64,000 nucleotides of DNA. Origin: Anaerolineae bacterium (lineage in GTDB: Bacteria; Chloroflexota; Anaerolineae; 4572-78; J111). Shown here one piece after another: positions 27,213-53,640 of this stretch. Below the pieces are notes generated by a model. That model had not been told where the DNA came from. It worked only from the letters and a program-made list of their open reading frames with translations, and did no database searches. The first letter of the stretch is position 1; each line of letters opens with the position of its first letter. Where the stretch lies: positions 397,339 through 461,338 of the forward strand of contig JAKLJP010000001.1 of NCBI GenBank assembly GCA_023151115.1. The letters run 5' to 3'. The position numbers and the translations under genes are program-made.

Positions 27213-28082
27213 ATGATGAATAATACCTTGGTTGAGGCGTTGGGTTTGGATTTGACCGAGCTGCGCGTCGCTATTAGCGAAGAATACACAGCGGTCGCCC
27301 TGAAACCGGAGCAGGGCTTTCATTTTCATACCGGTCGGCCCCTAGCGCACCTGCTGGGCTATCCCGACGAATGGCTGGCCGGTATCCCGGAAACATCTAT
27401 CGAGTCTTTTGCCGGCACCGGTAACCCCTTTAGTCTGGGCCAAATCCGTCCAGGAGAGCGGGTGGTGGATGTGGGCTGTGGGGCGGGGATTGATAGCCTC
27501 ATCGCAGCGAAAATGGGTGGGCCGGCCGGTCAGGTGATTGGAGTGGATATGACCCCGGCAATGCTCGACAAGGCTCGCCGTGCAGCGGTTGAGACTGGCT
27601 TGACCAATATTGAGTTCCGCCAGGGATATGCTGAGGCCCTGCCAGTGCCGGATAGCTGGGCGGACGTACTCATCTCCAATGGCGTTCTCAACTTGATGCC
27701 GGACAAAGCGGCTGCGCTGAGCGAAATGGCCCGTGTGCTACGCAGTCCTAACCCTGGGTTAGGGAAGCCGACTGGCCGCCTGCAAATCGGGGATATTTTG
27801 GTCCAAACCGTCGTGCCAGAAGACGCAAAAAGTGATATCTCGTTGTGGACCGGCTGAATTGCCGGTGCTCTGCTGGAAGCAGAGTTAGAGATGGCCGTCG
27901 TGATGGCCGGTTTTGTGGAGTTCGAGATCACCTGGCGAGCTGATGTATTTAGCGGTGCGCCCCAATCCTCAAGCGCTGCCGAGTTTGGCACGCTGGGGAT
28001 CAATTTCCGTGCTCGCAAGCCACGTGATGAGGTTGAATGGGCCAGGGCGCTGGCTGTCCTGAATTGCCAGGTTCCAGCCTGA
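27213..28082 (+). CDS. ArsM-like SAM methyltransferase with in-frame UGA (probable selenocysteine 215)
   Basis: 289 residues if the TGA at 27855-27857 is read through. The N-terminal region (EQGFHFHTGRPLAHLLGY) and SAM motif VVDVGCGAGIDSLIAAK, then VDMTPAMLDKARR and ISNGVLNLMPDKAAAL, place it in the arsenite methyltransferase-like group. The TGA falls in LWTG-U-IAGALLEAE, where ArsM enzymes have the Cys of the CIAGA motif that binds As(III). Homologous sequence continues for 74 codons after it, matching the paralogue at 52489. The N-terminal ArsM cysteines are missing, so the substrate may not be arsenite. It carries an 8-codon insertion built on a palindrome (27747-27763). Confidence 0.85.
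27868..27884 (+). promoter_or_regulatory. bacterial SECIS-like hairpin of ArsM-like gene 1
   Basis: CTCTGCT-GGA-AGCAGAG, a perfect 7-bp stem with a 3-base loop starting with G, 17 nt after the TGA. The identical hairpin follows the TGA of the paralogue at 53101. Confidence 0.78.
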
Positions 28083-28265
28083 CGATAAGGAGCCAGCCCG
28101 GCTGATATTTTTGATCCCACAACCTACTCACCATTTGGGTATTCCCGACCGCACGACTAAAGTCTGGGGGTTAGAAGAAGGGGGGTGGTCCGGCAGTAAC
28201 AATTCTGACAATTGAATAAGACTGTATTCAATCAAATATTCAAAGCAAGGGGGCAAAGTAACTGT

Positions 28266-28628
28266 ATGGCGACCATTCTTTATTTCGGAACGTCCGGGTC
28301 TGACGACCCAACCCGGGCCACGCTCCCCTTTTTGGGAGCTTTGGGGGCGGTGGAAGCCGGGCATCAAGCTCAGATCGCGTTGATGGGTGAGGCGACCTAT
28401 TTGATGAAAGACGCTGTGGCCGAGGCGGTACACGGGGTGGGCTGGCCACCCTTGAAAGAGCTGATGGCCAAAGCCGTCGCCCAGGGCGTCTCCATCCATG
28501 TCTGAGGGGGCTGCAGCGCGGCCCGTGGGGTCACTGATGCAGATTTGCAGGGCAAAAATGCCCGCTTTATTAACCCGAAAGTCGGGGCGGAGTTGACGGT
28601 AGCCGCAGATCGGGTGGTTAGCTTTTAA
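28266..28628 (+). CDS. DsrE-family protein with in-frame UGA (probable selenocysteine 80, UxxC motif)
   Basis: 120 residues if the TGA at 28503-28505 is read through; ATG 28266 has GGGGGCAAAG upstream. ILYFGTSGSDDPTRATLPF and a C-terminal TDADLQGKNARF..AADRVVSF are DsrE features. The UGA lies in SIHV-U-GGCSAARGV, giving U80-x-x-C83; the Cys paralogue at 53667 has C80-G-A-C83. The family transfers sulfane sulfur or reduces bound substrates through this cysteine pair. It is downstream of ArsM-like gene 1 and probably works with it on a sulfur, selenium or metalloid substrate. Confidence 0.85.
28514..28536 (+). promoter_or_regulatory. bacterial SECIS-like hairpin of DsrE gene 1
   Basis: Inner stem GGCCC/GGGTC with loop GTG (28525-28527), and an outer stem CAG/CTG. 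The loop begins with G 19 nt after the TGA. Confidence 0.65.
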
Positions 28629-28646
28629 CCGAAGAGGATAATGAAT

Positions 28647-28683
28647 ATGGCTGGTCACGCGCACTCCCAGGCCAGCCATTTTT
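28647..28683 (+). terminator. probable intrinsic terminator after DsrE gene 1
   Basis: ATGGCTGG pairs with CCAGCCAT across a 17-nt loop and runs into TTTTT. Confidence 0.55.
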
Positions 28684-28741
28684 CAAGGAGCGATGTTGTC
28701 TTCTCGCCAAATATTAGAGAAGCTGTAAGAAAGGAGAAACA

Positions 28742-29551
28742 ATGAGCGTTAGCGTCAATGTAACAACTCCGGAAAAGTCTCGACTAACGGCGGCGGAGGT
28801 CGAGGGGCTCGATCCGTATGCGCTCATGGCGGTACTGGGTAAACGGGTCATCCACCCGGGCGGGCGCCGTTCAACCGATGAATTATTCGCGCGAGCCAGC
28901 TTTCAAGCCGGCCAACTGGTGTTGGATGTCGGCTGCGGTGTGGGCACTACGGCCGCTCAAATAGCCCGTCGTTTCGGGGCTCAGGTGACTGCGCTTGATA
29001 TCTCCCCCCTGATGCTGGACCGGGCCCAGGCCAATATCCGCTCAGCCGGTTTGGGCCAACAGATCGAGGTGAAAAAGGGCGACATCCTGGCTCTTGATTT
29101 TGCCGATAACCGCTTTGATCGGGTTATTGCCGAGGCGGTAACCATGTTTGTGGATCGGCCCAAAGCGGCGCGGGAACTGGTGCGGGTCTGCCGACCGGGT
29201 GGGCGGGTGTTGGCCACCGAGTTTTTGTGGCGCAAGCCGCCCACGCCAGAGGCGCGCCAAATCTTTTTGGGTGAAGTCTGCCCCGGCATGAATTTCGACA
29301 CGATGGAGGACTGGGTTCAGATTTATCGGGAGGCGGGGCTAGAGGAGGTGCAAGTGACCTCCGGTCCTTTCGAGATGATGACCCCGGCCGGCTTCCTGAG
29401 AGACGAAGGCTTCGTGAACTGTCTGTTCTTTATGGGCCGGACCATGTCCCGCCTGGCCTATATCAAGAAGATGGCCTGGCTGATTCCCCGCATGCAGCGG
29501 GCCGTGCCTTATCTCGGCTATATTGTCGTGGCCGGTACGAAACCAGCTTAA
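28742..29551 (+). CDS. SAM-dependent methyltransferase
   Basis: 269 residues with AAGGAG before the ATG. A class I Rossmann methyltransferase: VLDVGCGVGTTAAQIARRFG, TALDISPLMLDRAQ, GDILALDF, and RVCRPGGRVLATEF. The C-terminal region (about 190-265) contains an amphipathic MGRTMSRLAYIKKMAW segment that may touch membrane. The substrate is unknown. It has no in-frame UGA, unlike its neighbours. Confidence 0.85.
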   Translation: MSVSVNVTTPEKSRLTAAEVEGLDPYALMAVLGKRVIHPGGRRSTDELFARASFQAGQLVLDVGCGVGTTAAQIARRFGAQVTALDISPLMLDRAQANIRSAGLGQQIEVKKGDILALDFADNRFDRVIAEAVTMFVDRPKAARELVRVCRPGGRVLATEFLWRKPPTPEARQIFLGEVCPGMNFDTMEDWVQIYREAGLEEVQVTSGPFEMMTPAGFLRDEGFVNCLFFMGRTMSRLAYIKKMAWLIPRMQRAVPYLGYIVVAGTKPA

Positions 29552-29598
29552 GACTAACATTCGGGCCAGTTGAGCTTTATCAGATAAAACGGGAGTAT

Positions 29599-30240
29599 AT
29601 GATGAATTGCTGCCAATGCCAGGCTATTGAGACTCGCTTCAATCAGAAGGTAGCGGCTGAAAAACTCAAACAGTATCGCCAGCAGGGGCCAGAAAAGACG
29701 ACCCGTGTATTGCTTGATGCGCTCAAGGCGGAAGGTGTCGCCGGGCTAACTCTGCTCGACATCGGTGGTGGTATTGGCGCGATTCAGCATGAGCTGTTGA
29801 AAACTGGCCTCAGTAGCGCCATCGGTGTCGAAGCATCTTCAGCCTACCTCAGCGCCAGCGCCGATGAGGCCGGTCGGCAAGGTCACGCCGACCGGATTAA
29901 TCATTACCAGGGCAATTTTACTGATTTGGCCGCCATCCTGCCGCCCACCGACATTGTCACCCTCGACCGGGTGATTTGCTGCTATCACGATATGCCGGCC
30001 TTGGTCGAGTTATCGGCAGCGCGGGCGAATAAATTGTACGGCCTGGTCTATCCTCGCGATACATGGTGGGCGAAGCTGGGCTTCGCCCTTGAAAATCGCC
30101 TCTTCTGGCTGCAACGAAACCCTTTCCGGCTATATGTCCATCCCACCGCCGCAGTTGAGGCCATCGTGCACGCCCACGGCTTGCAGCGGCGTTCCTATCA
30201 GACCGCGGGGGTGTGGCAAGTCGTCGTCTATGGCCGCTGA
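29599..30240 (+). CDS. SAM-dependent methyltransferase with cysteine-rich N-terminus
   Basis: 213 residues (212 if the second ATG is used). It starts MMNCCQCQAIE, a CCxC cluster. LTLLDIGGGIGAIQHELL is the SAM loop, VTLDRVICCYHDMPAL a post-motif segment with a Cys pair, and GLVYPRDTWWAKLG lies near the middle. The N-terminal cysteines could bind a metal or metalloid. It is the second of two adjacent methyltransferases between the two DsrE selenoprotein genes. Confidence 0.82.
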   Translation: MMNCCQCQAIETRFNQKVAAEKLKQYRQQGPEKTTRVLLDALKAEGVAGLTLLDIGGGIGAIQHELLKTGLSSAIGVEASSAYLSASADEAGRQGHADRINHYQGNFTDLAAILPPTDIVTLDRVICCYHDMPALVELSAARANKLYGLVYPRDTWWAKLGFALENRLFWLQRNPFRLYVHPTAAVEAIVHAHGLQRRSYQTAGVWQVVVYGR

Positions 30241-30362
30241 TTGGTGTATAGGGGGAAGCTTGAATGGGGGAAAGAAGTCGGTGGGTGTCAAACCCTCGCC
30301 AGTCTCTTGAGCTGCAACCATAACCATAAACCATCCAAGATAAAGGAGACGAAGAAACCTCT

Positions 30363-30728
30363 ATGGCAACCACAAGTCCCCGCAACATTTTATTCATTAT
30401 TAACGACGGGCCATATGGCAGCGAACGGGCTTACAATGCTCTGCGCCTGGCCCTGAATCTGGTCAAGCGGCCAGAAACGGCGGTACATGTCTTTCTGACC
30501 GGCGATGGGGTCGTTTGCGCCAAAAGGGGACAAAAGACACCGAATGGGTTTTACAATATTGAACGGATGTTGAAATCGCTGGCCCAGCGAGGCGAGGTGG
30601 CCCTCTGAGGGAGCTGTCGCGAGGCTCGCGGGTTCGAGCCGGAGGATTTGCTAGAGGGTGTGCTGTTGGGCAGCATGGATTTGCTGGGCGAATGGACCCT
30701 GGCTGCCGATCAAGTTATCGTTTTCTAA
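30363..30728 (+). CDS. DsrE-family protein with in-frame UGA (probable selenocysteine 82, UGSC motif)
   Basis: 121 residues if the TGA at 30606-30608 is read through. NILFIINDGPYGSERAYNALRLAL and a VFLTGDGVVCAKRGQKTP loop are typical of DsrE/YchN proteins. The UGA lies in GEVAL-U-GSCREARGFEPEDL, where Cys proteins have CGSC; the C-terminal TLAADQVIVF strand completes the fold. U82-x-x-C85 would be the redox pair. It precedes a rhodanese/persulfide-dioxygenase fusion, suggesting sulfane-sulfur or selenide relay. Confidence 0.85.
30623..30640 (+). promoter_or_regulatory. bacterial SECIS-like hairpin of DsrE gene 2
   Basis: GGCTCG pairs perfectly with CGAGCC around the loop CGGGTT; the loop lies 20 nt after the TGA, with G at its second base. 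Confidence 0.75.
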
Positions 30729-30748
30729 GTATCATCAAGGGGGAACCT

Positions 30749-31858
30749 ATGACACAGACCACTATTGACGTCGAGACTTTGCGTGAATTATTGGAACAGC
30801 AACAGCCAGTGACCGTACTGGACGTTCGCCGGGCGGAAGATCGGGCCGAATGGGCTATTCCAGGCAGTTTACACATACCAGCCTACGATGCCCTGAAAGC
30901 CAATGATCCCAACGCGCTGGCCGGAGTGAACCTGCCCGCTGACCGGCCGGTTGTGGCCATCTGCGGTGCGGGTGTAACCAGCCTCACTGCCGCCGAACAG
31001 CTTCGCGCCCGTGGCTTTGCGGCGCTTTCCCTGGCGGGAGGAATGAAAGCCTGGAGCCTGGCCTGGAACAACGCTGAAGTGCCTGTACCGGGGAGTCAGG
31101 CTCAGGTTATTCAAGTACGCCGAACCGGCAAGGGCTGCCTGTCCTATTTGATTGGTTCCCAGGATAGCGCTGCCGTGATTGACGCAGCCCTCGAACCGGA
31201 GATTTATCTGGACCTGGCCCAGCGTTACGGCTGGAATATCACGACTGTTTTGGAGACCCACATCCACGCCGACCACCTCTCCCGCGCCCGCCGGCTGGTC
31301 GAGCAAAGCGGCGCAACGTTGTATCTGCCAGACCAGGAGCGGGCGACCTTTTTGTTTAGCCCCCTTCGTGACGGTGATGTGCTCACTATTGGGACGGCCC
31401 ACTTGGTGGTGCTGCACACGCCGGGTCACACCCTGGAAAGTACGTGTTACTTGCTCGATGACCAGGCTCTCTTCAGCGGGGATACTCTCTTTTTGGCCGG
31501 GGTGGGCCGGCCTGACCTGGAAGCCAGTCCTATTGAAGCGCGGCAGCGAGCGTCCTTGCTGTACCGCTCCCTCCAACGACTGCTGACCCTTTCCCCCGAA
31601 ACCCTTATTTTGCCCGGCCATACCAGCGAACCGATTGCCTTTGATGGTCAGCCGGTTACTGCGCCATTGACCGAGGTGCAGCAGCGGGTTGAACTATTGT
31701 CTGTCCCTGAAGCTGCTTTTGTCGAGTCATTGCTGGCGCGCATCCCCCCGACACCGCCGAATCATCACCGCATTGTGACCTTGAATGAAAGTGGAGCGAC
31801 CTTCGAGGGCGACCCAACCGATCTGGAAGCCGGCGCAAATCGCTGCGCGGTGGCTTGA
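30749..31858 (+). CDS. rhodanese - metallo-beta-lactamase fusion (persulfide dioxygenase-like)
   Basis: 369 residues from ATG 30749 with AAGGGGG upstream. The N-terminal rhodanese domain (about 5-110) has VLDVRRAEDRAEWAIPG and the active loop ICGAGVTSLTA. The second domain (about 120-330) is a glyoxalase II/ETHE1-type hydrolase with ETHIHADHLSRA, HTPGHTLEST, FSGDTLFLAGVGRPDL and LPGHTSEP, the His/Asp metal set of ETHE1. Such fusions take sulfane sulfur from a carrier and oxidise it to sulfite. It would clear persulfides made by the DsrE proteins. Confidence 0.87.
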   Translation: MTQTTIDVETLRELLEQQQPVTVLDVRRAEDRAEWAIPGSLHIPAYDALKANDPNALAGVNLPADRPVVAICGAGVTSLTAAEQLRARGFAALSLAGGMKAWSLAWNNAEVPVPGSQAQVIQVRRTGKGCLSYLIGSQDSAAVIDAALEPEIYLDLAQRYGWNITTVLETHIHADHLSRARRLVEQSGATLYLPDQERATFLFSPLRDGDVLTIGTAHLVVLHTPGHTLESTCYLLDDQALFSGDTLFLAGVGRPDLEASPIEARQRASLLYRSLQRLLTLSPETLILPGHTSEPIAFDGQPVTAPLTEVQQRVELLSVPEAAFVESLLARIPPTPPNHHRIVTLNESGATFEGDPTDLEAGANRCAVA

Positions 31859-31867
31859 GCGGGAAGA

Positions 31868-33160
31868 ATGATGACGTCAACAACCCTAACCTCTGTCCGC
31901 CTGGGCCTGCGGGCCAATTGGGAACAGTTCAGCTTATTAGTCATTGTCAATGCTTTTGTCGGGGCGATGGTCGGCCTGGAGCGAAGCGTCTTACCCCTCA
32001 TCGCCGAGGCCGACTTTGGCCTGGTTGCCAAGTCGGTCACACTCTCCTTCCTGGTTAGCTTTGGAGTAGTTAAAGCCCTGGCTAATCTGTTCGCCGGGCG
32101 GTTGTCCGACCGGGTGGGACGCAAGCGCATCTTAATTGCCGGCTGGCTGGCCGGATTGCCGGTGCCGTTCCTGATCATTTTTGCGCCCAGTTGGGGTTGG
32201 GTGGTCTTTGCCAATGTGCTGTTGGGCATCAATCAAGGCCTATGCTGGTCTACGACCGTGATTATGAAGATAGATTTAGTCGGTCCCAAGCAGCGCGGTC
32301 TGGCGATGGGTCTCAATGAATCTGCCGGTTACGTGGCCGTCTCCCTGTCGGCGCTCATGACCGGCTACCTGGCGGCGGCCTACGGCCTGCGTCCCGTCCC
32401 CTTTTACCCCGGCATCGCTTTTGCTCTGCTAGGATTGGTCCTTTCCATCTTTTTTGTCCGTGAGACTCATGCTCACGCCCGGCACGAAGCTAAGTTGTCT
32501 CAAGTTCCCTCAGTTCCTACAAATCCCCTTAGCTCCTCGGTTAAGCAAGGAACTAAAGGAGCCGATTTATCCTTTGCCCAGATCCTACTTTTGACCAGTT
32601 GGAAAGACCGGGCGCTCTTTGCGGCCAGTCAGGCCGGGCTGGTCAATAACCTCAACGATGGTCTGGTTTGGGGGTTAGTTCCCATCTTTTTAGCCGGAGC
32701 CGGGCTGCCGCTGGAACAGGTAGGCATCATTGCTGCCATCTATCCAGCTGTTTGGGGACTGGGCCAACTCGTGACCGGCGCGCTCAGTGACCGCTGGGGG
32801 CGCAAGTGGCTGATCGCCGTAGGAATGTGGGTGCAGGCTATCGGCATCGCGCTGTTTGTCATAGGTTATGCTTTCTGGGCCTGGTTTGCCGGGGCGGTTC
32901 TGCTGGGGCTGGGTACGGCTCTGGTCTACCCTACCCTGTTAGCTGCTATCTCCGATGTCGCTCATCCCGAATGGCGGGCCTCGGCGGTGGGTGTCTATCG
33001 CCTGTGGCGGGATGGCGGCTATGCGGTCGGCGCCTTGATGGCCGGACTGCTGGCCGACGCGTTCGGCATCCCAATCGCTATCGCCGCCATCGGTGGGCTA
33101 ACCTTTCTTTCGGGCGTGATCGTCGCCGGGGTGATGTACGAGACGTTGCCCAAACGGTGA
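31868..33160 (+). CDS. MFS transporter
   Basis: 430 residues with twelve predicted helices in two bundles. RLSDRVGRKRILIAG (loop 2-3) and LSDRWGRKWLIAV (loop 8-9) are the duplicated major-facilitator motif A. It follows the persulfide dioxygenase gene by 9 bp and is likely co-transcribed. An exporter of the methylated or oxidised product is a guess. Confidence 0.85.
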   Translation: MMTSTTLTSVRLGLRANWEQFSLLVIVNAFVGAMVGLERSVLPLIAEADFGLVAKSVTLSFLVSFGVVKALANLFAGRLSDRVGRKRILIAGWLAGLPVPFLIIFAPSWGWVVFANVLLGINQGLCWSTTVIMKIDLVGPKQRGLAMGLNESAGYVAVSLSALMTGYLAAAYGLRPVPFYPGIAFALLGLVLSIFFVRETHAHARHEAKLSQVPSVPTNPLSSSVKQGTKGADLSFAQILLLTSWKDRALFAASQAGLVNNLNDGLVWGLVPIFLAGAGLPLEQVGIIAAIYPAVWGLGQLVTGALSDRWGRKWLIAVGMWVQAIGIALFVIGYAFWAWFAGAVLLGLGTALVYPTLLAAISDVAHPEWRASAVGVYRLWRDGGYAVGALMAGLLADAFGIPIAIAAIGGLTFLSGVIVAGVMYETLPKR

Positions 33161-33318
33161 TGACTGTTTGGGGTGAGTTTAGCGGGATAGATTTTTCAAG
33201 GAGAGGCGTTGGCTTGACTCGATGAGCCAACCGGAAGTGGCGAGAGACGTGAAATTAGCTATGATCAAACGGGGTCATCTCGTCATTCTGCTTTGACCCT
33301 AGTTTTCTCAGGAGGCCA

Positions 33319-36300
33319 ATGGTCGTGACCTTGAAATTAAAGCTGCTGGGCCAACTCCATGTGACAGCCGGGGCGACCTCCACGATGCTGCTTTTCCGGC
33401 CGCGCGCCCGACGCCTGTTGGCTTACCTGCTGTTGCATCGCCACACGCCCCTGTCTCGTCAAGAAATAGCCTTCAAATTATGGCTTGACAGTCCTGAGAA
33501 AGAGGCTTTAGGCACGTTGCGGCGTGCCCTGAGTGAGCTGCGCACCACCTTGCCCGAATGTCCGGGGGATGAATGGATCGTTGAGGTCCACGATCAGTTG
33601 CGCTGGAACCTCGACGCACCTTACTGGCTCGATATCGAAGCTTATGAGCACTTGGTTAAACAGGCCGACCCTGCTGCGCTCCATGAGGCTATCTCGTTCT
33701 ACACGGGTGATTTGCTGGCGGGCTTTGACGATGAATGGCTCTTGGCCGAGCGCGAACGCCTGCGCCAAATCCAACTCAACAGCCTGCGCCAGCTTGTGGC
33801 CCACCACCGGGCCATAGGTGAAGTTGATACGATGCTGAACCTCATCCACCGGGCGCTTGATCTGGAGCCCCTGGCCGAGGCCGTTTACCGCGATCTCATC
33901 GCCCTCCGGTATGAGGCCGGTGATCGGGCTGCGGCCCTGGCCGAATATGAGCGTCTATGCACCTTGCTGCGCGATGAGTTGGGGGTCGAACCCATGGCCG
34001 AAACCGAAGCCCTGCGGACGGCCATCGTGCGAGGATTGCCCCTGCCGGCCGCTGAAAGGGAAATGGCGACTCCAGCGCCATCCCATCTGCCAGGCCTGCC
34101 CAAACTCTTTGGGCGAGAGGTCGAAATGGATAGATTGAGCCGGCTGTGGACAGAGGCCGTCTCTGGCCGTGGTCGTTTAGCTATCGTCGGTGGCGAGGCC
34201 GGGGTGGGCAAGAGCCATCTGACCCTCAGCCTGGCCGACGATGCGATCCAACAGGGTGGCCTGGCGCTGGTGGGTCACTCTTACGAGTTCGAGCGGGCGC
34301 TGCCCTATCAAGCCATGGTCGAGATGTTACGCTCGGCGGCGAACCTGCTGCGGAACGCCACCCTGCCGGCAGTGTACCGGGTGACGCTGGCTCGCCTGGT
34401 ACCGGATGTACTCGGCGTGGCTGACCGCCTGGTCGAAGAGGCAATAATTTCACCGGATGACTTGCGGGCGCAACTATTTGAGGCCCTGCTGCAAGCCTTC
34501 CTGGTCCTGGCCCGCAGCCGGCCGCTGTTGCTCCTCTTCGAAGATGTGCATTGGGCTGCGGAGTCCACCCTGGATTGGTTAACCTACATCGCGCCCCGCC
34601 TAAGCGCCAGCCGCCTACTGGTGGTGATTACCTACCGGACGGACGAGGTGGGCGCTGAACGTGCTCTGGCCCGGCTGGGACGGCGCTTCACCCACGAAGG
34701 TACGGTTTCAACGATCTCGCTCAAACCGCTGTCGCAGGAGACCAACCGAGAATGGGTTGCCCACCTGTCGGGCCTGGCAGAGCCACTGGCTGTTCAGGTA
34801 GCAGACCGGTTGTTTGTTGAGACGATGGGCAATCCTTTTTTCCTGGAAGAAATCGTCAGGGGGTTGATTGAAGCCGGGCAAATCTTTGCCAGTGGCGGGC
34901 GCTGGATTGGGGCCTTTGTCGAGGCCGCGCCGGGTGCGGTAGTGCTGCTACCCGAATCGCTGCGCGAAACGATCAGGGCGCGCCTGGAGCGATTGACGGA
35001 AATGGCCCGGACATTTCTGCGGGTAGCGGCGGTGGCCGGGCGGGTTTTTGAGTATGAACTGGTGCGACACGCCGAAGGTTGGGCTGACGAATTGGCCCTG
35101 GGCGCCTTGGAAGAGTTGCTGGCGCGCGGGTTTATCCGCGAAGGTGAAGATAGAGGTGATTTCACTTTCGCCCACCATTTGGTGCAGGAGGCGATCTACG
35201 CCGATCTGACTCCTCCCCGGCGGACATACTTTCACCGGCGCCTGGCTGAAGCGATCCAGGCCCTTCATCCAGACGACTTTGAAGCGCTGGCTTATCACTT
35301 CATCGCTGCCGGTGAACCGGGCACGGCGATTGAATACTCCCGGCGGGCAGCGCAACGGGCTGAGATGCTGTATGCCTACGAAGAGGCGGTCCAACATCTG
35401 CGCACTGCCCTCGACCTGCTTGAAAGTGGAGAACAGTCTGAGCTGCGCCTGACGCTTCTGGAAGCATTGGCCGACAATTATCGCTTGCTACGGCAGGGCG
35501 TTGACGCGATTTCAACCTACCAGGCTGCCCTCGACCTGTGGTCCAGCTTGAGGCAGGCCGACAAAATCATGGCTGTGCGTTTGCATCGCAAGATCTTTCA
35601 AACGACGGCAGGTATGTGGGGGAACGCCGATTTTCAGCAATTTGAGTTTGCTTCTCAGGTCAGCACCGCCCTGCGGATAAAAATTGACGCCCTCTTACGA
35701 TCTATGGAGGACGAACCGCCGCATCCAGAAATGGTACGCCTGCTCAAGACGCTGGCGGCTGATGCCTTAATCACCCGCTTCCCGGCCAAGTGGGATGAAG
35801 CAGTGCAATATGCCCAAGCGGCGGTTGTGGCTGCCGAACACCTGGATGCGCCGATTGAATTGTCGTCGGCGCTCATCACCCTTTCCAGCATCTATGGCGC
35901 GGGTGGCTTGCTGCGTGAGCGGGTGGAGGTAGCCCTGCGAGCGTTGGCTCTGAGCCACGACCCGCGCTTCGACGACATACGGGAGCGGATTAATATCCTG
36001 ATTGGGACCGGCAGCGCCCTGATTCATGCCGGCGAATACGCCCACGCTGTCCCCCATCTCCTGGAAGCAGAGGGCCTGGCCGACCAGATTCGGGCTGTGG
36101 ATGAGCAGGCCCGGGCCCTGTCGGCCTTGCACCAGGGCTTGTTCCGCCTGGATCGCTGGGACGAGATGTTCAAAATAGAAGAGAGGCGGCGCACGCTTCA
36201 ACAACTCTATTCGCTCGAACGGCTGGGGGCGACCTGTTTTGCCATTGGACTCAGCGCAACAGTGCATGCCCTGCGCGGCCAGTTCGACCAGGCTAAGTTA

Positions 36301-36885
36301 CTGCGAGAAGAATCGTATACCATAATGGCCGGCATCAGTGGGCCGCCGGAGCGCTGGAGACGTAGCCACCATTATTGACTGTGCCAGCCCCTGGCGGCGG
36401 AGGGCGAGTTCGCCCTGGTCAGACAACATCTGGAAGAGGCGCTGATCAAGCTCGATATCTCGCCGACCTACGTCACCCCTGCCGTTGACAATGACCTGTA
36501 CGCGATGCTTGCCGACGTTGCTGCCCAGCAGCGTGACCTGGCGGCCCTACGTCAGTACGCGCCCCTGGCTGAAAAAACAGCCGCGCAGTGTGGCCATGGG
36601 TTGTACCAGGCCATCGCCCATCGCGCCTGGGGCGTGGCCCACCGGCTGGCAGGTGAGCATGACCAGGCCAACGTGCGTTTGCATCAAGCCCTGGCATTGT
36701 TCCAGGATTTGGATACCCGCTGGCAAATCGGGCGGACGCTGTCTGAGTTGGGTACACTGGCGGCGGCGCGCGCCGAGACCACCACCGCCCGCGACTACTT
36801 TTCCCGTGCGCTGGCAGCGTTTGAGGAAATGAAAGCAGCGCCGGATGCCGCTCGGGTTCGGGCAGCCCTGGCAGTCCTGGACTGA
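33319..36885 (+). CDS. BTAD-AAA-TPR transcriptional regulator with in-frame UGA (probable selenocysteine 1020)
   Basis: 1188 residues if the TGA at 36376-36378 is read through; ATG 33319 has AGGAGG upstream. An N-terminal winged helix (about 5-95) and BTAD helical domain (about 98-245) are SARP/MalT-like. The AAA ATPase (about 260-600) has Walker A VGGEAGVGKSHLTL and Walker B LLLLFEDVHWA. TPR repeats run from about 650 to the end. The UGA lies in RSHHY-U-LCQPLAAEGEF; the frame continues for 168 residues of clear TPR repeats. The second regulator has its UGA in a matching H-L-U-L context. The signal bound by the TPR region may be sensed at this residue (inference). Confidence 0.8.
36391..36422 (+). 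promoter_or_regulatory. bacterial SECIS-like hairpin of BTAD regulator 1
   Basis: GGGCG-AGTT-CGCCC (36402-36415) on top of an outer stem CTGGC/GTCAG. The apical loop lies 28 nt after the TGA, with G at its second base. Confidence 0.65.
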
Positions 36886-39694: not shown

Positions 39695-39980
39695 ACCTTT
39701 AGCGAGTTAGACCGCTCACTCATCTTCCCCAATTAAACCTCAAACCAAGCTCACATTACACCATTGTTAGATGACATGACCCAGGGTTTACTGCTAAAGT
39801 AAGCCTTGTTGATAAACGTTATTCATTCAAACACCCTTAGCTGAACGAAAGGATAAATGTTGTCCGACTTGGGTACGACGATCACCAGCATCACCCTGCC
39901 AGGAAGACGCGCCGGAAACGCTTGTCTCCCTGATCCAGACGTTTATCCAGATGACTCACTAAGTGCAGTTGGAGGTAAAA
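39695..39980. other. 286-bp intergenic stretch
   Basis: No recognised gene. A possible 47-codon reading frame starts at ATG 39857 behind AAAGGA and overlaps the rhodanese start, but its translation (MLSDLGTTITSITLPGRR and so on) matches nothing I know; it may be a leader or chance. Confidence 0.4.
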
Positions 39981-40322
39981 ATGAAACTAATATCCCGTGA
40001 GGAGCTTAAAGAAAAGCTGGACAAAGAAGAGGACATTAAATTGGTTTTCGCTCTAGGCTCCTGGCAGTATCGGGCCAAGCACATCCCTGGCTCTCTCCAC
40101 TTCGATGACCCAGAGGAGACCCTGCAGGTGCTTGACCAGGACGACGAGATCATCGTCTACTGCTCCAATCCAACATGTCCTGCCAGTATCTTCGCCTACC
40201 ACTTTTTGATGGACCATGGCTACAAGAACGTTCGCCGCTACGCCGGAGGTCTCTTGGAGTGGGAGGACGCCGGCTTTCCATTGGAAGGCGAAAGTGTAAT
40301 CGTTTATGAGCAGTGGAGGTAA
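39981..40322 (+). CDS. single-domain rhodanese
   Basis: 113 residues from ATG 39981 with TTGGAGG five bases upstream. LVFALGSWQYRAKHIPGSLHFDD and the active-site loop YCSNPTCPASIFAYHFL are a rhodanese fold with an extended Cys loop (CSNPTC). The first Cys is catalytic. The domain ends with the usual GGLLEWEDAGFPLEG. A soluble sulfane-sulfur (or selenium) carrier. Confidence 0.85.
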   Translation: MKLISREELKEKLDKEEDIKLVFALGSWQYRAKHIPGSLHFDDPEETLQVLDQDDEIIVYCSNPTCPASIFAYHFLMDHGYKNVRRYAGGLLEWEDAGFPLEGESVIVYEQWR

Positions 40323-40326
40323 GACG

Positions 40327-45199: not shown

Positions 45200-45213
45200 T
45201 ATTACAACAATTT

Positions 45214-46127: not shown

Positions 46128-46128
46128 T

Positions 46129-46908
46129 ATGGCGTTTAAAGAGATGCAACTTGTCACTGGGACTGGAGAAATCAAGACCATAACGGCTGACCCCGATACA
46201 ACCGAAACTACCGTACTCCACGAGCTAATGGACTTCACCGGCAGACATGTATTAGAGATTGGTTGCGGCGACGGCCGGGTGACGTGGCAATACGCTGCTC
46301 AGGCCGCGTCCACCATGGCACTTGATCCCAACCAGGAAGCCATCGCCAACGCCATCAAGCAGAGACCGGCTGAATTAAGCGAGCGGGTTGAGTTTCGAGT
46401 GAGTGGCATCGAGGATTTTGCCGTCGCGCCAGGCGTTCCAGGCTTTGATGTTGTTATCTTCACGCGGAGTCTCTGTTGAATCGCCGTTAAGGGCATGGGT
46501 CATGCCCTGGAGAAAGCGCATCGCTTGCTCAAGTCAGGGGGTGTGCTAATGGAAAGCCATTTCAGCGGCGAACCTTTTTCATTAGAGGTTCATCATCAGG
46601 GCGAGGTCAAGCACGCCGAACCGATGGATCGTACCGACGATTTTGAGATGTTCAAACAAGCAAAAGCAGCTCTGGATCAGGTAGTCAAAGCTGGTTTATT
46701 TTGGCCCGTGGCCGAGCGCGTCTTCGATTATTTAGTTTATGCCGACAGCTTCGACGCTCTCCGCCAATGGTGGGACGAGCCTTTGAGCCAGCTCATGATT
46801 GATGACAAGGTCGTAAGAAAGGTGAACGAACTGGTTCTTGGAACAGGTGGTGTGGCCCAGGTGGTCTTGCGGCGCCAAGTTCGGGTGGGAAGACTGAGCC
46901 GAGTTTAA
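46129..46908 (+). CDS. SAM-dependent methyltransferase with in-frame UGA (probable selenocysteine 117)
   Basis: 259 residues if the TGA at 46477-46479 is read through; ATG 46129 has AAAGGAGGGG. VLEIGCGDGRVTWQYA is the SAM loop and LDPNQEAIANAI the adenine-side acid. The UGA follows a Cys in FTRSLC-U-IAVKGMGHAL, at the position where related methyltransferases have SLCCI. The frame then gives AHRLLKSGGVLMESHF, the usual post-motif III, and a 100-residue C-terminus. Adjacent C116-U117 could form a selenenylsulfide or bind a soft metal. Confidence 0.83.
46491..46507 (+). promoter_or_regulatory. bacterial SECIS-like hairpin of the methyltransferase gene
   Basis: GGGCATG-GGT-CATGCCC, a perfect 7-bp stem, loop starting with G 18 nt after the TGA. 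Confidence 0.78.
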
Positions 46909-47040: not shown

Positions 47041-47898
47041 ATGAGGACCAATGGAAAAAATGATTACGTTTTCGACGAGGTGTTAGTCACCACCGATTGG
47101 CTGGCGGAACATCTGGATGACGCCAACGTGCGCCTGGTGGAAGTCAGCGTTGATACCGAAGCCTACGGCTCCGGGCACATTCCCGGCGCCATCGGCTGGA
47201 GCTGGAAAAAGGATACCCAGGCTACGCTGCGCCGCGACATTCCTGACCAGGCCGATTTCGAAGCCTTGATGAGCCAGGCCGGTATTGCCAATGAGACTAC
47301 CGTGGTGCTGTATGGCGACCTGGATAACTGGTTTGCCACCTATGCCTTCTGGCTGCTCAAACTGTACGGTCACCAGGATGTGCGCCTGCTCAATGGGGGT
47401 CGCAAGAAGTGGTTGGCCGAAGGACGGCCACTGACCACTTTCGCACCCGCCCATTATCCCACCAGCTATCAGGCCCAACCCCACAATACAAACCTGAGAG
47501 CTTTACGCAGTTTTGTCGAGGCCAGTTTACATCATACCGGGCGTGCCTTGGTGGATGTGCGCTCCCCCGACGAGTTCTCCGGCAAATTGCTGGCCCCAGT
47601 TAACCTGCCCCAGGAAGGCGCGCAGCGTGGTGGGCATATCCCCGGCGCGGCCAATATTCCCTGGAGCAAGGCGGTTTTGGAAGATGGAACTTTCAAGACC
47701 CTGGTCGATTTGAAAGCGCTATACGAGGGCCAGGGTATTTCTGCCGACAAGGAAATCATCGCCTACTGTCGCATCGGCGAGCGCTCGTCGCATACCTGGT
47801 TTGTGCTGAGTTACTTGCTGGGCTACCCCAACGTGCGTAACTATGATGGCTCCTGGACCGAGTGGGGCAGCCTCATCGGCGCGCCGATTGAACGGTAG
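47041..47898 (+). CDS. thiosulfate/3-mercaptopyruvate sulfurtransferase (two-domain rhodanese)
   Basis: 285 residues. An inactive N-terminal rhodanese domain (about 10-145; SGHIPGAIGWSWKKDTQ) is followed by a catalytic one (about 160-280) with LVDVRSPDEFSGK, RGGHIPGAANIPW and the loop YCRIGERSSHTWF, Cys followed by RIGERSS as in thiosulfate sulfurtransferases. It uses normal Cys, unlike several sulfur-transfer neighbours. Confidence 0.9.
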   Translation: MRTNGKNDYVFDEVLVTTDWLAEHLDDANVRLVEVSVDTEAYGSGHIPGAIGWSWKKDTQATLRRDIPDQADFEALMSQAGIANETTVVLYGDLDNWFATYAFWLLKLYGHQDVRLLNGGRKKWLAEGRPLTTFAPAHYPTSYQAQPHNTNLRALRSFVEASLHHTGRALVDVRSPDEFSGKLLAPVNLPQEGAQRGGHIPGAANIPWSKAVLEDGTFKTLVDLKALYEGQGISADKEIIAYCRIGERSSHTWFVLSYLLGYPNVRNYDGSWTEWGSLIGAPIER

Positions 47899-48233
47899 AT
47901 TTGGGTCGTAACTAGAAAGTGAAGTGTGAATAATAGAGCTTTACAATTATTCCAGTTTACTTGCCATCAGAGTAGGTGGGACGGAGCGCGCTCGAAAAAA
48001 TCGAGCGCGCTCGCCACCTGCACTATCGACGCAGCTCAGAATGTGGGGGGGTGGTCTTGAAAACACAGCCAATCCGAAGTAAAATGAAAACGAGAACGAT
48101 ACAAATTACTATAATTGCAGGGTGAAAAGGCGACTTTCTTTTTGGGTTTGACGCCGTCACTTAGAATCGCCAAGCCTGGCCAGCTTCACCGAGTTATCCC
48201 TGCAAATGGGGAAAAGGAGACCAGTTCATAAAG
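47899..48233. other. 335-bp intergenic region with a strong hairpin
   Basis: No gene seen. A 12-bp perfect stem lies at 47984-48012 (GAGCGCGCTCGA/TCGAGCGCGCTC, A5 loop), with a flanking AGGTGG/CCACCT pair at 47974-47979 and 48014-48019. No U-run follows, so it is not a plain terminator. The rest probably holds the promoter of the second BTAD regulator. Confidence 0.5.
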
Positions 48234-51200
48234 GTGCAGCAAACGATGCCAGCTTTAACTTCGCCCTCTGTCCGCATCTACCTGTTGGGGCGTTTCCAGG
48301 TCGCTTGGGGAGAACGCACCTTAAGCGCCGCCGAGTGGCCGCGCCGCAAGGCCGCCGCCCTCCTCCAACGCCTGGCCATGGAGCGGCGTCTGTTGAAAGA
48401 ACAGGCGATTGAGTTTCTCTGGTCGGACGCCAACCTCGCTTCCGGGGCAAATAACCTGTACAGCACCCTCCACGTTTTGCGCCAAACCCTTAACACGGCT
48501 CTTGGTCAGGGCGCGGCCGACGCGGTCTTTAGCTTTGAAGATGGCGTTTTGAGCCTTGCCCCGTCGGTCTGGGTAGATGTCCAGGAGTTCGAGCGGCTGT
48601 GCGCCACAACGCCGACCGTACCTCCTGAGCAGCGTCAAGCCAATCTTGAACAGGCATTGGATATTTACGAGGGCGACCTGCTGCCCGACGACCGGTACGC
48701 CGAGTGGACCTTGCTCCCGCGTGAGGCGCTCTACCGTCGCCAGCGCGAAGCCCGCCTGGCGCTGGCGGCGTATTGTCGTGATGCCCGCGACTACACCGGC
48801 GCGATTACCCTGCTCACCCCACTCCTGGCCCTGGGTGGTGATCCGGCCGACGAGCCGGTTCATCGCGAACTGATGCGGCTCTATGCTCTGGCCGGCCGCC
48901 GTCACGAGGCGCTGCGCCAATATCAGACCTGTGTGGAGGCCCTGGCCGCCGATCTGGATGTGCCGCCCGCCCCGGAAACGGCGGCTTTGTATGGGCAAAT
49001 CCTCAGCGGTGAGCTGACCGCGTGGCCTGGAGCAAGCAGTTTAACCGGCCGCCCCATCCCGTCCGCTGCCCTCAAGCTCGAACCTAGCCCGGCGCTGGTC
49101 GGACGCGCGGCTGAATTCGAAAGGCTGCGGGGTTGGCTGGACACGGTCCGGCGGGGGCGGGGCCAGACCCTCCTGATTAGCGGCGATGCCGGCATCGGCA
49201 AAACTCTCCTGGCGGGTGAACTCTTGTGCGCCGCCGTTGGCAGCGGCATGGCGGTACTTTTTGGCGCGGCCTATGAGCAAGAGGGGCAACTGGCCTACCA
49301 ACCCTTCATCGAGGCCTTTGATCGCTACCTGGCCGAACGCCAGCGTCCCCCCGCTGAGAACCCGATCACCTCCTTCAAACCGCGCGGCTCCAGCGACCCC
49401 CAGCAGGAACAGTGGGCGTTGTTCAACGCCACCGCCGTCTTCCTGGCCGGCCTGGCCTTGCGCAACCCGGTGGCTCTGCTGGTGGATGATCTGCACGCGG
49501 CCGACGAGGCCAGCCTGCGGCTCTTCCATTACCTGGCCCGGCAGACGCGGGCCGCTCCGGTGGTGCTGCTGGCCACCTGCCGCAGCGATCTGGGCGACAC
49601 GAGCGCCACGCCGCTTAGCGCGCTCCTCACCGCGCTCTACCGCGAGCGCCTGAGCGAGACGCTGCCCCTGGCCCCGCTGACTGGGGACGCCGCCGCCAGC
49701 ATTATGGCCCATACCCTCGGCGGCGGTGTGACCCCGGAGTTGGTCAAGGCGGTATTCGAGATCACCGAGGGCAATCCTTTCTTCATTGAAGAGATGACCC
49801 GCGCCCTGTTCAAGTCTGACCAGGTGGAAAACCAGGCCGGGCAGTGGCGGCTGCGACCGGGCGCTACGCTGGGCATATCAGCCGATCTGGCCGGACTGCT
49901 GCGCGAGCGGGCGCGCCGCCTGGGGCCACCCGTCGAAGCGGCCCTCACGGCGGCGGCAGTGGTTGGGCGTGAGTTTCGTTTCGACGTGCTGCGCGGCGTA
50001 GCCGGGCTGCCCGATGGGGCGCTGCTCGATGCCCTCGACGCCGCGCTCACCGCTCACCTGCTGGAGGAGACGGCGGACGGCTATCGCTTCCGGCATCCGC
50101 TCACCCGCCAGGCCCTCTACACCGCCCTCAGCCGGGCCCGCCGCGCCCGGCTGCACGGCCAGGCCGCCGCCACGATCGAGGCGCTGTACGCCCGCCAGCT
50201 CATGGGACTTGACCCCTACATCGAGGACCTGGCCTTTCACTACGATTTGAGCGACCGCCGCGACCGCGCCCTCGAGTATCTGCTGCGGGCCGGACAGAAA
50301 GCGTCGGCCGTCTACGCCTTTGAGAGCGCGGTCGGCTACTTTGAGCGGGCGTTGACCCTGATGGATGCGCTGAAACTGGCCGATCCTGCCCACCGTTGGA
50401 TGATCCTGGAGGCGCTCGGCTGGTGGCGGATCATCCTGGCCGATACACCCCGCAGTGTGGCCTGCTTCGAACAGGCGCTGGCGCTCCCGCCTGGCGAGGG
50501 GTGGCAGCCAGCAGGTTCCGATCGGGCGCGCCTGCACCGTGGCGCCGCGGTAGCCTTGATTACAGTTGGAGACACCGCGGCGGCTGAGACGCACCTGACC
50601 GCCGCGCTGGCCGAGGTGGATGAACACAAGAATGCGGCCGACTATGCCTACGTGCTCTACAATATGGCCCAGTTACACTGGCATCGCAATGAGTACCAGG
50701 AGGCCTTCGAGGTGGCGCAGGCTAGCCTGGCCATCGCCGAGCGGCTGAATGATCCGGCGGCGATTGCGCGCGCCTTCGAGATACTGGCGCTGGCCTGCCA
50801 CTCGCTGGGAGAGTGGCGGACCGGGATCGGCTTTGAGCAGCAGCGCGCCGCCCTGGCCGGCTCGAGCCTCGATGTGACCGAAGCCTTTGATGTCCACTTG
50901 TGACTGTGGGAGTATCACCTGTATGGTGATAAGGGTTACGAAGAGGTGAAACAGGCCGTCAGCACGACCCACGAGCAAGCGCGGCGGATGAGCGCACCGC
51001 GGGCGATCGCCCTGTGTCAGTGCTTTAATGGGGCGCTCGAATTTCAGGCCGGCCACTGGGATGTGGCAGAAGCGGCGCTGCGCGAATCCATCCAGCTTTA
51101 CCGCGAGATTGGCGCGGCCTCCGGAGAAGCGCTGGCCTGCCAGCGGCTAGGTGTGCTCCAGACGGCCCGCGGCCAACTGGCGGAGGGGTTGGCGACACTG

Positions 51201-51737
51201 GAAGAGGGTGTGATGGCGGCCGAGCAGGCCCTCATGCGGGCGCACTGCCTGGCCCGTCTCTATGCCGCTATGGCTCGCAATCGCCTTGCCGCAGGCGACC
51301 TCGCTGCCGCCGACCAGGCTCTGGACCTGGGCCTGGCGATGAGCCAGCGCCACGGTCACTGCGCCACCTGTGACGCCTTGCTCCTGCCGGCCGCCGTGAG
51401 CATGCGGGTGGCCGCGGGCGACTTCGCCGCCGCCGAACGCTTCTGCCGCCAACTGGAGGCAGCAGCAGAACAGTACGGTAGCCGGATGTGGCTGGCGATG
51501 GCGCGCCAATCGCGCGGAGAGCTGGCGGCAGCCCAGGGCCGGCTCGATGTCGCGTTGGACGATTACGCCGAAGCCCGGGCCGGATACACTGCGGCCGGGA
51601 ACGCATATGAAGCCGCCCGCTGCCTGGCCGCCGCCGCTGCGCTCCGGCTTGGCCGCAGCGCGCCAAACGACTTGGCGGCCGCGCAGGCGATGCAGACGGA
51701 AGCCCGGCGGATCTTCGAGCGGCTGGGCGCGACCTGA
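48234..51737 (+). CDS. BTAD-AAA-TPR transcriptional regulator with in-frame UGA (probable selenocysteine 890)
   Basis: 1167 residues if the TGA at 50901-50903 is read through (GTG start at 48234; ATG 48246 is possible). Winged helix (about 10-100), BTAD (about 105-255), AAA ATPase (about 285-600; Walker A LLISGDAGIGKTLLAGELL, Walker B VALLVDDLHAADE), then TPR repeats. The UGA lies in FDVHL-U-LWEYHLYGD; 277 further in-frame residues are regular TPR repeats with a CATC pair near residue 1040. It is an upstream neighbour of OsmC, ArsM-like gene 2 and DsrE gene 3, separated by a terminator. Confidence 0.82.
50913..50931 (+). promoter_or_regulatory. bacterial SECIS-like hairpin of BTAD regulator 2
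   Basis: TATCACC-TGTAT-GGTGATA, a perfect 7-bp stem; the loop lies 16 nt after the TGA, with G at its second base. Confidence 0.75.
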
Positions 51738-51773
51738 CCCCTGGTCTTCTAGCAGGCAACTTTGACCCTTGCA

Positions 51774-51800
51774 TGCCGGGACGGATGTCCCGGCATTTTT
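51774..51800 (+). terminator. intrinsic terminator of BTAD regulator 2
   Basis: TGCCGGGAC-GGAT-GTCCCGGCA perfect 9-bp stem followed by TTTTT. Confidence 0.9.
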
Positions 51801-51918
51801 GTTGCCCGGAAAAGTGAAAAAGTCATGCCCAATTAAGGCCGAAATAAGATTTTTGTGAGGGGGTGATGCTATATTCTGGATAAATTTTATTGGCAATATT
51901 CAGAAAGGAAACGAAACG

Positions 51919-52485
51919 ATGACGATCCAAACCGCAACCCTGATCAATGGCGTTAATGTCGACCAATTGGTGATGACCGTAAACGCCATCCAGCAGAATC
52001 CGGCGCTGGCCCGCTTCCAGTTCCGGGCCCACAATGAATGGGCCGGGGGCGGCCATTCTCGCACTACGATCCAGGGGTTTTACGGCGCCGGCCAGGAGGA
52101 TACCTCCCGCAGCCAACCCCTTATCCTGGAAGGAGACGAACCGCCGGTGCTCCTCGGCGACAACGCCGGTCCCAATGCCGTCGAAGCCGTCCTGCACGCC
52201 CTGGCTTCCTGCCTGGCGGTCGGCTTTATCTACAACGCGGCAGCGCAAGGCATTCACGTCGAGAGCCTGAGCTTCGACCTGGAAGGAGATCTGGACCTGC
52301 GCGCCTTCCTGGGTCTGTCTGAAGCAGTGCGCCCGGGTTACGAAAGCATCCACCTGGCCTACCGGGTGAAGAGCGATGCGCCCCGGGAGAAGCTGGTGGA
52401 GCTGTGCAATTATGTCCAGAAGACTTCCCCGGTTTTGGACATCATCCGCAACCCGGTTCCCGTGACCGTCTCACTAAAGGACTGA
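51919..52485 (+). CDS. OsmC-family peroxidase-like protein
   Basis: 188 residues with AGAAAGGA upstream. GPNAVEAVLHALASCLAVGF holds the first redox Cys, and ELCNYVQKTSPVLDIIRNPVPV the second. OsmC proteins reduce organic hydroperoxides or act on sulfur compounds via this Cys pair. It has normal Cys at both sites. The next gene starts three bases after its stop, so it is co-translated with the ArsM-like selenoprotein. Confidence 0.88.
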   Translation: MTIQTATLINGVNVDQLVMTVNAIQQNPALARFQFRAHNEWAGGGHSRTTIQGFYGAGQEDTSRSQPLILEGDEPPVLLGDNAGPNAVEAVLHALASCLAVGFIYNAAAQGIHVESLSFDLEGDLDLRAFLGLSEAVRPGYESIHLAYRVKSDAPREKLVELCNYVQKTSPVLDIIRNPVPVTVSLKD

Positions 52486-52488
52486 GCG

Positions 52489-53640
52489 ATGATTGCAGCA
52501 AATTACCTACCGACACTCGACCTGGGATCGTTGCGCACCGCGATCCAGGAAGAATATGAATGGGTGGCGCTCGAACCCGACCGTGGCTTTCACTTTCACA
52601 CCGGGCGCCCGCTGGCCCGCTTGCTGGGCTACCCGGATGAATGGCTGGCCGGCCTCCCCGAAACGTCCATCGAGTCCTTCGCCGGCACCGGCAACCCCTT
52701 TAGCCTGGGAGAACTAAAACCCGGCGAGCGGGTAGTAGACGTGGGCAGTGGAGCCGGGATTGACAGCCTCATTGCCGCCAAAATGGTCGGCCCAACCGGC
52801 CGGGTGATTGGGGTGGATATGACCCCGGCGATGTTGAACAAGGCGCGTCGTGCCGCTGCCGAAGCCGGGTTGACCAATGTCGAATTCCGCGAGGGTTATG
52901 CCGAGGCCCTGCCCGTGCCTGACGGCTGGGCCGATGTGGTCATCTCTAACGGGGTGCTTAACCTGATGCCGGACAAGGCCGCTGCCCTGGGTGAAATGGC
53001 GCGAGTGCTCAGGCCAGGCGGTCGCCTGCAGCTTGGCGACATCCTGGTGCAGAAGGCTGTACCGGAGAGCGCCAAACGCAAGATAGACTTGTGGACTGGC
53101 TGAATTGCCGGCGCTCTGCTGGAAGCAGAGTTGCACATGGCCGTGGTCATGGCCGGTTTTGTAGATTTCGAGATCACCTGGCGAGCCGACGTTTTCAGCG
53201 GCGCGCCCCAAGCGAGCAGCGCGGCTAACTTTGGTACCCTGGGCATCAATTTCCGCGCCCGTAAAGCCCGTGATGAGGCCGAATGGACTACGGCGCTGGC
53301 CGCCCTGAATTGCGAAGTCCCCATCGTAGGTGGGGGCGAAGTCCTCAGCGTAGGTGAGGGCGAAGTCCCACCCACAAGGCGGAGTGAGGTCTCAGCGGCA
53401 ATAACACCCGCCTCAATCTTGGGCGCGGACGCCTTCTACGATGCCGGTGATCTGGGCTGTGCCTATGGCCCATTGAACGAAATCGCGGGGCTAATGCGCA
53501 GCCTGTTGCCGGGTCAAACCATGGAAGTTCGGGCCACCAATCCCAGCGTAGCAGTTGATCTACCGGCCTGGTGTCGCTTAACCGGTCACGAATTGGTGAC
53601 CCGACAAGGGGATCGTTATCTCATTCGTCGGGTGAGTTGA
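52489..53640 (+). CDS. ArsM-like methyltransferase with in-frame UGA (probable selenocysteine 205), fused to a TusA-like domain
   Basis: 383 residues if the TGA at 53101-53103 is read through. The methyltransferase part (to about residue 285) is closely similar to the 27213 protein throughout, including LWTG-U-IAGALLEAE at the UGA. A linker with a 24-base imperfect tandem repeat (VGGGEVLSVGEGEV) leads to a C-terminal domain (about 315-383) with DAGDLGCAYGPLNEIAGLMR and AWCRLTGHELV, resembling TusA/SirA sulfur carriers. The fusion ties methyl transfer to a sulfur or selenium relay. Confidence 0.85.
53114..53130 (+). promoter_or_regulatory. bacterial SECIS-like hairpin of ArsM-like gene 2
   Basis: CTCTGCT-GGA-AGCAGAG, identical to the hairpin at 27868-27884 and at the same distance (10 nt to the stem, 17 nt to the loop) from the TGA. 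Confidence 0.78.

Follow-up and report, generated by a model that had tools for sequence, protein, structure and literature searches.

Among the bacterial selenoproteins catalogued so far, ArsM proteins have been verified by experiment, and the entries for DsrE, rhodanese and OsmC proteins are predictions (PMC9312934, PMC13188914, PMC12013277). Two published tables, of 87 and 119 families, consist mostly of enzymes, redox or metal-binding proteins and transporters; Table 1 of neither paper includes a BTAD/Streptomyces antibiotic regulatory protein (SARP) or any other sequence-specific transcription activator, and among the entries an FmdB-family 'putative regulatory protein' comes closest to a regulator (PMC9312934, PMC13188914). 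The multi-selenoprotein operons SAO and Tso each bring together several selenoprotein genes that are believed to act in a single pathway, and section 9 of the same review names no selenoprotein transcription activator in them (PMC13188914). SARP operators, in the account given in PMC10936776, are direct repeats 11 or 22 bp apart with the third repeat 8 bp before the -10 element; the activator AfsR is kept in check by its NTPase and TPR parts until it has bound ATP (PMC10936776). Here we describe a 64,000-nucleotide stretch of DNA, the window, from an Anaerolineae bacterium (contig JAKLJP010000001.1, assembly GCA_023151115.1, read 5' to 3'; all coordinates of its features are positions in this stretch), in which seven genes each carry a single in-frame TGA. 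On the evidence of sequence the seven TGAs are very likely selenocysteine (Sec) codons, and the genes likely form a selenium-dependent sulfur- and arsenic-handling island run by two predicted Sec-containing activators of the SARP/STAND type, BTAD1 and BTAD2. Like SAO and Tso it groups several selenoprotein genes, but they are of other families. Pfam assigns the read-through products as follows, the TGA in each being the predicted Sec codon:

27213-28082, plus strand: ArsM1, an ArsM-like methyltransferase; TGA at 27855-27857, hairpin at 27867-27885
28212-28628, plus strand: DsrE1, a DsrE protein; TGA at 28503-28505, weak hairpin at 28520-28532
30363-30728, plus strand: DsrE2, a DsrE protein; TGA at 30606-30608, hairpin at 30623-30640
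33319-36885, plus strand: BTAD1, a BTAD-AAA_16-TPR regulator; TGA at 36376-36378, residue 1020; hairpin at 36401-36416
46129-46908, plus strand: MT, a class I methyltransferase; TGA at 46477-46479, hairpin at 46490-46508
48234-51737, plus strand: BTAD2, a BTAD-AAA_16-TPR regulator; the TGA is residue 890 of 1167
50901-50931, plus strand: the BTAD2 TGA (50901-50903) and a hairpin (50913-50931) resembling a selenocysteine insertion sequence (SECIS), with synonymous codons and stem frozen
52489-53640, plus strand: ArsM2, an ArsM-like methyltransferase with a C-terminal TusA part; TGA at 53101-53103, hairpin at 53113-53131

A preliminary description of this DNA had placed the TGAs at 27855, 28503, 30606, 36376, 46477, 50901 and 53101, and each is indeed in frame with open parts on both sides; none of the seven genes meets a second stop when its TGA is read through. 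It had also denied any general recoding, which agrees with the use of TGA as the true stop of ArsM1, BTAD1, BTAD2 and ArsM2 themselves. In a blind scan for TGAs on both strands with coding signal on either side, six of the seven island sites were among the best nine, the DsrE1 site at 28503 scoring weakly; the other three were ordinary stops at 31856 and 52483, each between adjacent genes in the same frame, and a site at 49880 on the strand opposite BTAD2. A screen of TGAs with flanking coding signal in the window gave no convincing candidate for a further Sec gene. Relatives checked at the site keep either TGA or Cys, and read errors are excluded for BTAD2, both ArsM and both DsrE genes by identical TGAs in independent assemblies. 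Homologues with Cys at the site were seen for BTAD2, ArsM, DsrE and MT. The selenocysteine reading is well supported. The strong evidence is this comparative one, the hairpins alone not being decisive site by site. Gene by gene, the sequence comparisons give firm support for BTAD2, both ArsM proteins and DsrE2, good support for DsrE1 and BTAD1 and moderate support for MT; MT, BTAD1 and DsrE1 are the weakest sites.

For BTAD2, a scan of genomes with its alignment gave 24 loci (labelled L with a number below), among which all 12 at 53-84% identity have the TGA, the remainder being one Cys paralogue (L013) and 11 distant, partial matches that are uninformative about the site. Among 400 genomes of the phylum, 77 had any match, and the seven rows above 100 bits comprise five with an internal TGA and two without. 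Taken together at the DNA level, 17 relatives of at least 37% identity, copies left out, have TGA in 15 cases and Cys in two. Among the 120 protein homologues listed, 93 have Cys at the site, 19 stop exactly before the UGA and eight have Pro, Ala, Ile or Val. The closest relative found, the Anaerolineales genome H5_CFX7 (L012), is 84% identical in BTAD2 and 95% in OsmC. The same genome holds the Cys paralogue (L013 10871-13768), whose codon is TGT and whose hairpin sequence is still near that of the selenocysteine genes, as if the change from Sec to Cys were recent. In a FastTree phylogeny built on the region ahead of the UGA (119 rows, of which 35 are selenocysteine, 77 Cys and seven other) the distribution of the selenocysteine label takes three changes, and well-supported branches force two of these. 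The pattern is consistent with selenocysteine as the old state of a Chloroflexota clade and subsequent shifts to Cys, within the limits set by long branches and weak forks.

The TPR part of BTAD2, modelled with Cys in place of Sec, is predicted to be a TPR superhelix, with a mean predicted local distance difference test score (pLDDT) of 92. The model places Sec890 in a helix and is least certain at the first residues of that helix. The fold matches are many TPR proteins, with domain III of MalT at rank 45 (template modelling score 0.62 by its length). All 54 aligned homologues have His888, His1004, Cys1043 and Cys1046, and 50 of them have Cys at the Sec position. Both regulators exceed the cut-offs for BTAD and AAA_16, and BTAD2 alone that for TPR_12; for Trans_reg_C, BTAD1 scores 25.4 bits against a cut-off of 26.2 and no match is reported for BTAD2. 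Likeness to the AfsR/SARP-STAND activators, with their MalT-like TPR sensors, lies in the BTAD, NTPase and TPR parts, in the presence of MalT domain III among the BTAD2 fold matches and, for BTAD2, in an operator-like site whose 11-bp repeats stop 8 bp short of the -10. The differences are the selenocysteine predicted in the sensor part, the occurrence of the relatives in Chloroflexota, a predicted target that is an OsmC-ArsM operon instead of antibiotic genes, and scores far under the NCBI AfsR cut-off (model NF053617, 1430 bits; 49.8 bits for BTAD1 and 19.8 for BTAD2). BTAD1 and BTAD2 would work like AfsR but are not AfsR.

Each TGA is followed by a hairpin, and the spacing from UGA to loop is as had been claimed: 17 nucleotides in ArsM1, 19 in DsrE1, 20 in DsrE2, 28 in BTAD1, 18 in MT, 16 in BTAD2 and 17 in ArsM2. 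A G as first or second loop base, also claimed, is found in all seven. The further contention that the hairpins exceed chance holds for the seven jointly but does not decide individual sites when they are compared with synonymous shuffles. The combined p value is 2.5e-5, or 4.7e-4 with ArsM1 left out and 0.006 with both ArsM genes left out, and the hairpins of ArsM1 (p 0.0035), ArsM2 (0.0055), BTAD2 (0.016) and MT (0.039) fall below 0.05 individually. Folding energy of the first 45 nucleotides gives p below 0.05 at two of the seven sites only. Comparative tests give stronger evidence. Across 15 BTAD2 genes synonymous codons have an identity of 0.83 within the hairpin, compared with 0.38-0.52 in windows clear of it, and of 480 windows the five under the strongest constraint all start 0-4 codons past the UGA; nine ArsM genes (196 windows) give the same picture just past their UGA. 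In the 8-bp ArsM stem (12 sites, 11 distinct) four of the eight pairs have compensating changes, and the covariation score and percentage paired are reached by none of 500 shuffles. The BTAD2 stem is frozen, with five of seven pairs never varying and 96% of cells paired. These patterns in the sequences show the ArsM and BTAD2 hairpins to be constrained at the nucleic-acid level. The ArsM hairpin of L076 (7101-7163) has the loop TGTAC, the type found in BTAD2 hairpins, in place of GGA.

The enzymes belong in part to described selenoprotein families, as the preliminary description had noted for the DsrE-like, OsmC-like and methyltransferase families; in the published tables ArsM is verified and DsrE and OsmC are predicted. 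The UGA of ArsM2 aligns with the conserved Cys of the solved arsenic methyltransferases 5evj and 5eg5. ArsM1 shares the stretch WTG-UGA-IAGAL with ArsM2, and its TGA is preserved in L012 (87% identity). As in the ArsM selenoprotein already known, the Sec would occupy the conserved Cys of the ECxxGAL stretch, but here one copy is fused to TusA, the genes are clustered with Sec regulators, and the two proteins score 203.8 and 226.8 bits, under the cut-off of 263 bits for the NCBIfam ArsM model NF008823; both can be called ArsM-like only. A second, distant ArsM type, 45-49% identical to ArsM2, adjoins the Sec regulator in L005 (14726-15379), L006 (9245-9889) and L008 (14795-15472); its TGA is at the same place and its hairpin sequence is different. 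The DsrE1 TGA is kept in one DNA relative, L001, and that of DsrE2 in L001 and L012, the latter UGA standing opposite a Cys of YchN (1jx7). The DsrE2 match in L012 (6955-7271) consists of two overlapping pieces in different frames, likely a frameshift or assembly error there. Both proteins have the UxxC motif of the DsrE-like selenoproteins predicted in both tables, and differ from these in being two copies adjoining Sec-ArsM and rhodanese genes. For MT, eight of 31 homologues were examined: P0153 carries Cys, both P0154 and P0155 terminate right at the TGA, P0156 ends one residue earlier, and three more distant ones have His. MT has no DNA relative among the loci compared, and its Cys homologue is a single one.

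For BTAD1, the seven best of the 31 homologues listed, down to 33% identity, all stop exactly at the TGA; the remaining 24, none above 28% identity, match merely as generic TPR proteins and do not agree on a residue at the site. A search of 400 genomes of the phylum and 25 of the order gave two weak matches and one good partial match (L073), in which a run of N upstream hides the codon and the hairpin downstream is the same as that of BTAD1. In two of the homologues, P0125 and P0126 (33-34% identity), an adenylate/guanylate cyclase domain replaces BTAD on the AAA-TPR part; both end exactly at the Sec position, and it is possible that they are selenocysteine-containing cyclases.

The machinery for selenocysteine was sought in the genomes of 12 relatives, the window's own genome not being among them, and in 14 control genomes. 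A check for selB and selC, possible in the 12 relatives' genomes only, found both above cut-off in all 12. SelB passed in 12 of 12 relatives against two of 14 controls, tRNA-Sec in 12 of 12 (11 of them at 67-76 bits) against five of 14, SelA in 10 of 12 against one of 14 and SelD in 11 of 12 against two of 14. SelB was also found in all six further genomes picked for a BTAD2 match. Since all 11 SelD genes of the relatives carry one internal TGA, it is very likely that these organisms use UGA for selenocysteine in a textbook gene.

What BTAD2 controls is suggested by a site immediately behind its own gene:

51832-51875, plus strand: predicted SARP-type operator, 11-bp direct repeats and TATATT, 43 nucleotides upstream of OsmC; held-out score 28.4
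51919-52485, plus strand: OsmC-like protein, downstream of BTAD2 in 11 of 15 selenocysteine-type relatives

An operator model was trained on nine relatives and the window then held out (it was added to the model later). The held-out window contains one site scoring 28.4, where the runner-up in the 64 kb scores 11.6 and the maxima of five shuffled windows are 10.8-13.6. Its direct repeats recur every 11 bp (identity 0.45 at lag 11 against 0.21-0.32 at the remaining lags), and the consensus puts the end of the third repeat 8 bp upstream of a -10 element TATNNT. It lies directly behind the regulator in 13 of 16 selenocysteine-type loci, comprising the nine used for training and four of seven held out, the held-out matches besides the window being L001, L003 and L012, detected once the window had been added to the model. 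With that model the site is also found behind the Cys-type regulator in L074, where a TusA-like and a DsrE-like gene come next. In L012 about 1 kb separates the site, again behind the regulator, from OsmC; comparison of such loci therefore indicates that the site tracks the regulator and not the downstream gene. The L074 regulator (8226-12542, minus strand) is a Cys-type BTAD2 that has neither OsmC nor ArsM in its surroundings and represents the module without selenium. In L003 (13450-15800) the site precedes small open frames resembling membrane proteins, not OsmC-ArsM, and L005 has a second, weaker match (21.0) at 3395-3438. Besides OsmC, a TGA-bearing ArsM occurs in 11 of 15 selenocysteine-type relatives, and both are present even in L076, where the regulator is only 37% alike. 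Because of the operator-like site, its SARP geometry and the presence of OsmC and ArsM downstream in relatives, BTAD2 is proposed to be, probably, the activator of the OsmC-ArsM operon.

A mechanism can be outlined from these features. BTAD2 would bind the 11-bp direct repeats right behind its own gene and turn on the genes for OsmC and for the ArsM-TusA selenoprotein. If AfsR is a guide, its C-terminal TPR part would be a sensor that restrains the activator until a signal and ATP release it, and conservation suggests that Sec890, with His888, His1004, Cys1043 and Cys1046, might read an electrophile, a metalloid or reactive sulfur or selenium species. Because Sec insertion needs selenium, its supply would also gate the switch: at low selenium an 889-residue BTAD2 lacking the last 277 residues would be made. 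Our most far-reaching proposal, somewhat less likely than not, is that these are the first Sec-containing activators, gated by selenium, the truncated form being silent and the full-length form sensing metalloids or reactive sulfur and inducing an operon of Sec enzymes; the sensor of BTAD1 may take Sec sensing into cyclic-nucleotide signalling.

Several results weigh against these interpretations. The hairpins of BTAD1 (p 0.13), DsrE2 (0.14) and DsrE1 (0.40) are not better than synonymous shuffles. Two of the five measures applied to the ArsM stem do not stand out, the number of compensated pairs being reached by 90 of 500 shuffles and the number of pair types by 287, and the compensating changes are confined to three loci of one subtype (L005, L006 and L008), so that they may represent few events. 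Covariation was sought in the BTAD2 stem and none is given, because the stem is frozen. No Cys homologue of BTAD1 was found among the 31 listed, and no BTAD1 match spanning the TGA in the 400 phylum and 25 order genomes searched. Five of 14 control genomes pass the tRNA-Sec cut-off and one relative (G011) has a marginal tRNA-Sec of 48.8 bits; SelA is missing in two of the 12 relatives and SelD falls below cut-off in one. As SelB is also present in 26 of 36 phylum genomes not picked for BTAD2, and is thus common in the phylum, its presence alone says little. Finally, the operator-like site was not found in L076 or in the Cys paralogue locus L013, nor in L002 and L077, whose contigs end shortly past the regulator gene.

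The alternative that survives best accepts selenocysteine but supposes that in the regulators it replaces a structural cysteine, with no sensing through Sec and no selenium gating. The Cys found in 93 of the 120 listed homologues, and the Pro, Ala, Ile or Val of eight more, imply that the family does not need selenium, and the background of the phylum is rich in SelB. Against this, 15 relatives at 37-84% identity retain TGA despite the risk of a stop, the motif around the site hardly varies among proteins with Cys or Sec there, and the two His and the CxxC are invariant in all 54 aligned homologues; we regard a purely structural role as possible, if rather doubtful. Much less can be said for true stops in the regulators, which would give products of 889 (BTAD2) and 1019 (BTAD1) residues with a separate or decaying piece downstream. 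Gene callers do end 19 BTAD2 and seven BTAD1 homologues exactly at the TGA, and BTAD1 is without a continuous homologue, but the 93 BTAD2 homologues continue through with Cys, coding signal is strong downstream of both regulator TGAs, and the codons right after the BTAD2 TGA are the most constrained of the 480 windows, which makes termination very unlikely. That the TGAs were produced by gene decay or sequence errors is more improbable still: MT is known from a single site among the DNA loci compared, but the TGAs of BTAD2, ArsM1, ArsM2, DsrE1 and DsrE2 recur in independent assemblies and none of the seven genes has a second stop. The reading of UGA as another amino acid through a changed code or general suppression would also keep all seven genes open, but can hardly be credited when TGA terminates four of the same seven genes and the neighbours at 31856 and 52483, homologues have Cys, and relatives have SelA, SelB, SelD and tRNA-Sec.

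The predicted selenoprotein genes are set among further genes that Pfam identifies as four rhodanese proteins, OsmC, two further methyltransferases, MFS and EamA transporters and a LuxR-TPR regulator. These neighbours include:

26424-27095, plus strand: ArsR-type helix-turn-helix domain fused to rhodanese, the first gene of the island (Pfam); kept in L001 and L012
30692-31858, plus strand: rhodanese fused to a metallo-beta-lactamase fold (Pfam)
39963-40322, plus strand: rhodanese (Pfam)
47041-47898, plus strand: two-domain rhodanese (Pfam)
53571-54026, plus strand: third DsrE protein, a Cys form with Cys at the site (Pfam)

Beyond the last of these, a possible mobile edge at the island border (54880-59280, minus strand) holds group II intron reverse transcriptases at 54880-56805 and 57339-58469 and a phage-type integrase at 58597-59280. 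Group II intron RNA at 57255-57331 is the only Rfam match in the window, and ARAGORN found no tRNA in its 64 kb.

ArsM and DsrE selenoproteins are already known, and what appears to be new is the Sec in two predicted transcription activators, together with a predicted operator linking BTAD2 to a selenoprotein operon. The association with regulators had been called unusual from the start, and the BTAD regulators are the novel part, appearing in neither published table. Text searches gave no title or match for a selenocysteine BTAD protein, and 'selenoprotein' and 'Streptomyces antibiotic regulatory protein' co-occur in no paper, in a searched literature that lacked most subscription papers and preprints. 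Regulators of the BTAD2 type are mis-annotated because gene callers end them at the TGA, as in 19 of the 120 listed homologues. Natural Cys versions exist, that of L074 beside the same predicted operator, so that the question of selenium versus sulfur can be tested in one protein. If the reading is true, a DNA-binding activator with Sec in its sensor part would extend the roles of selenocysteine in bacteria to the control of genes.

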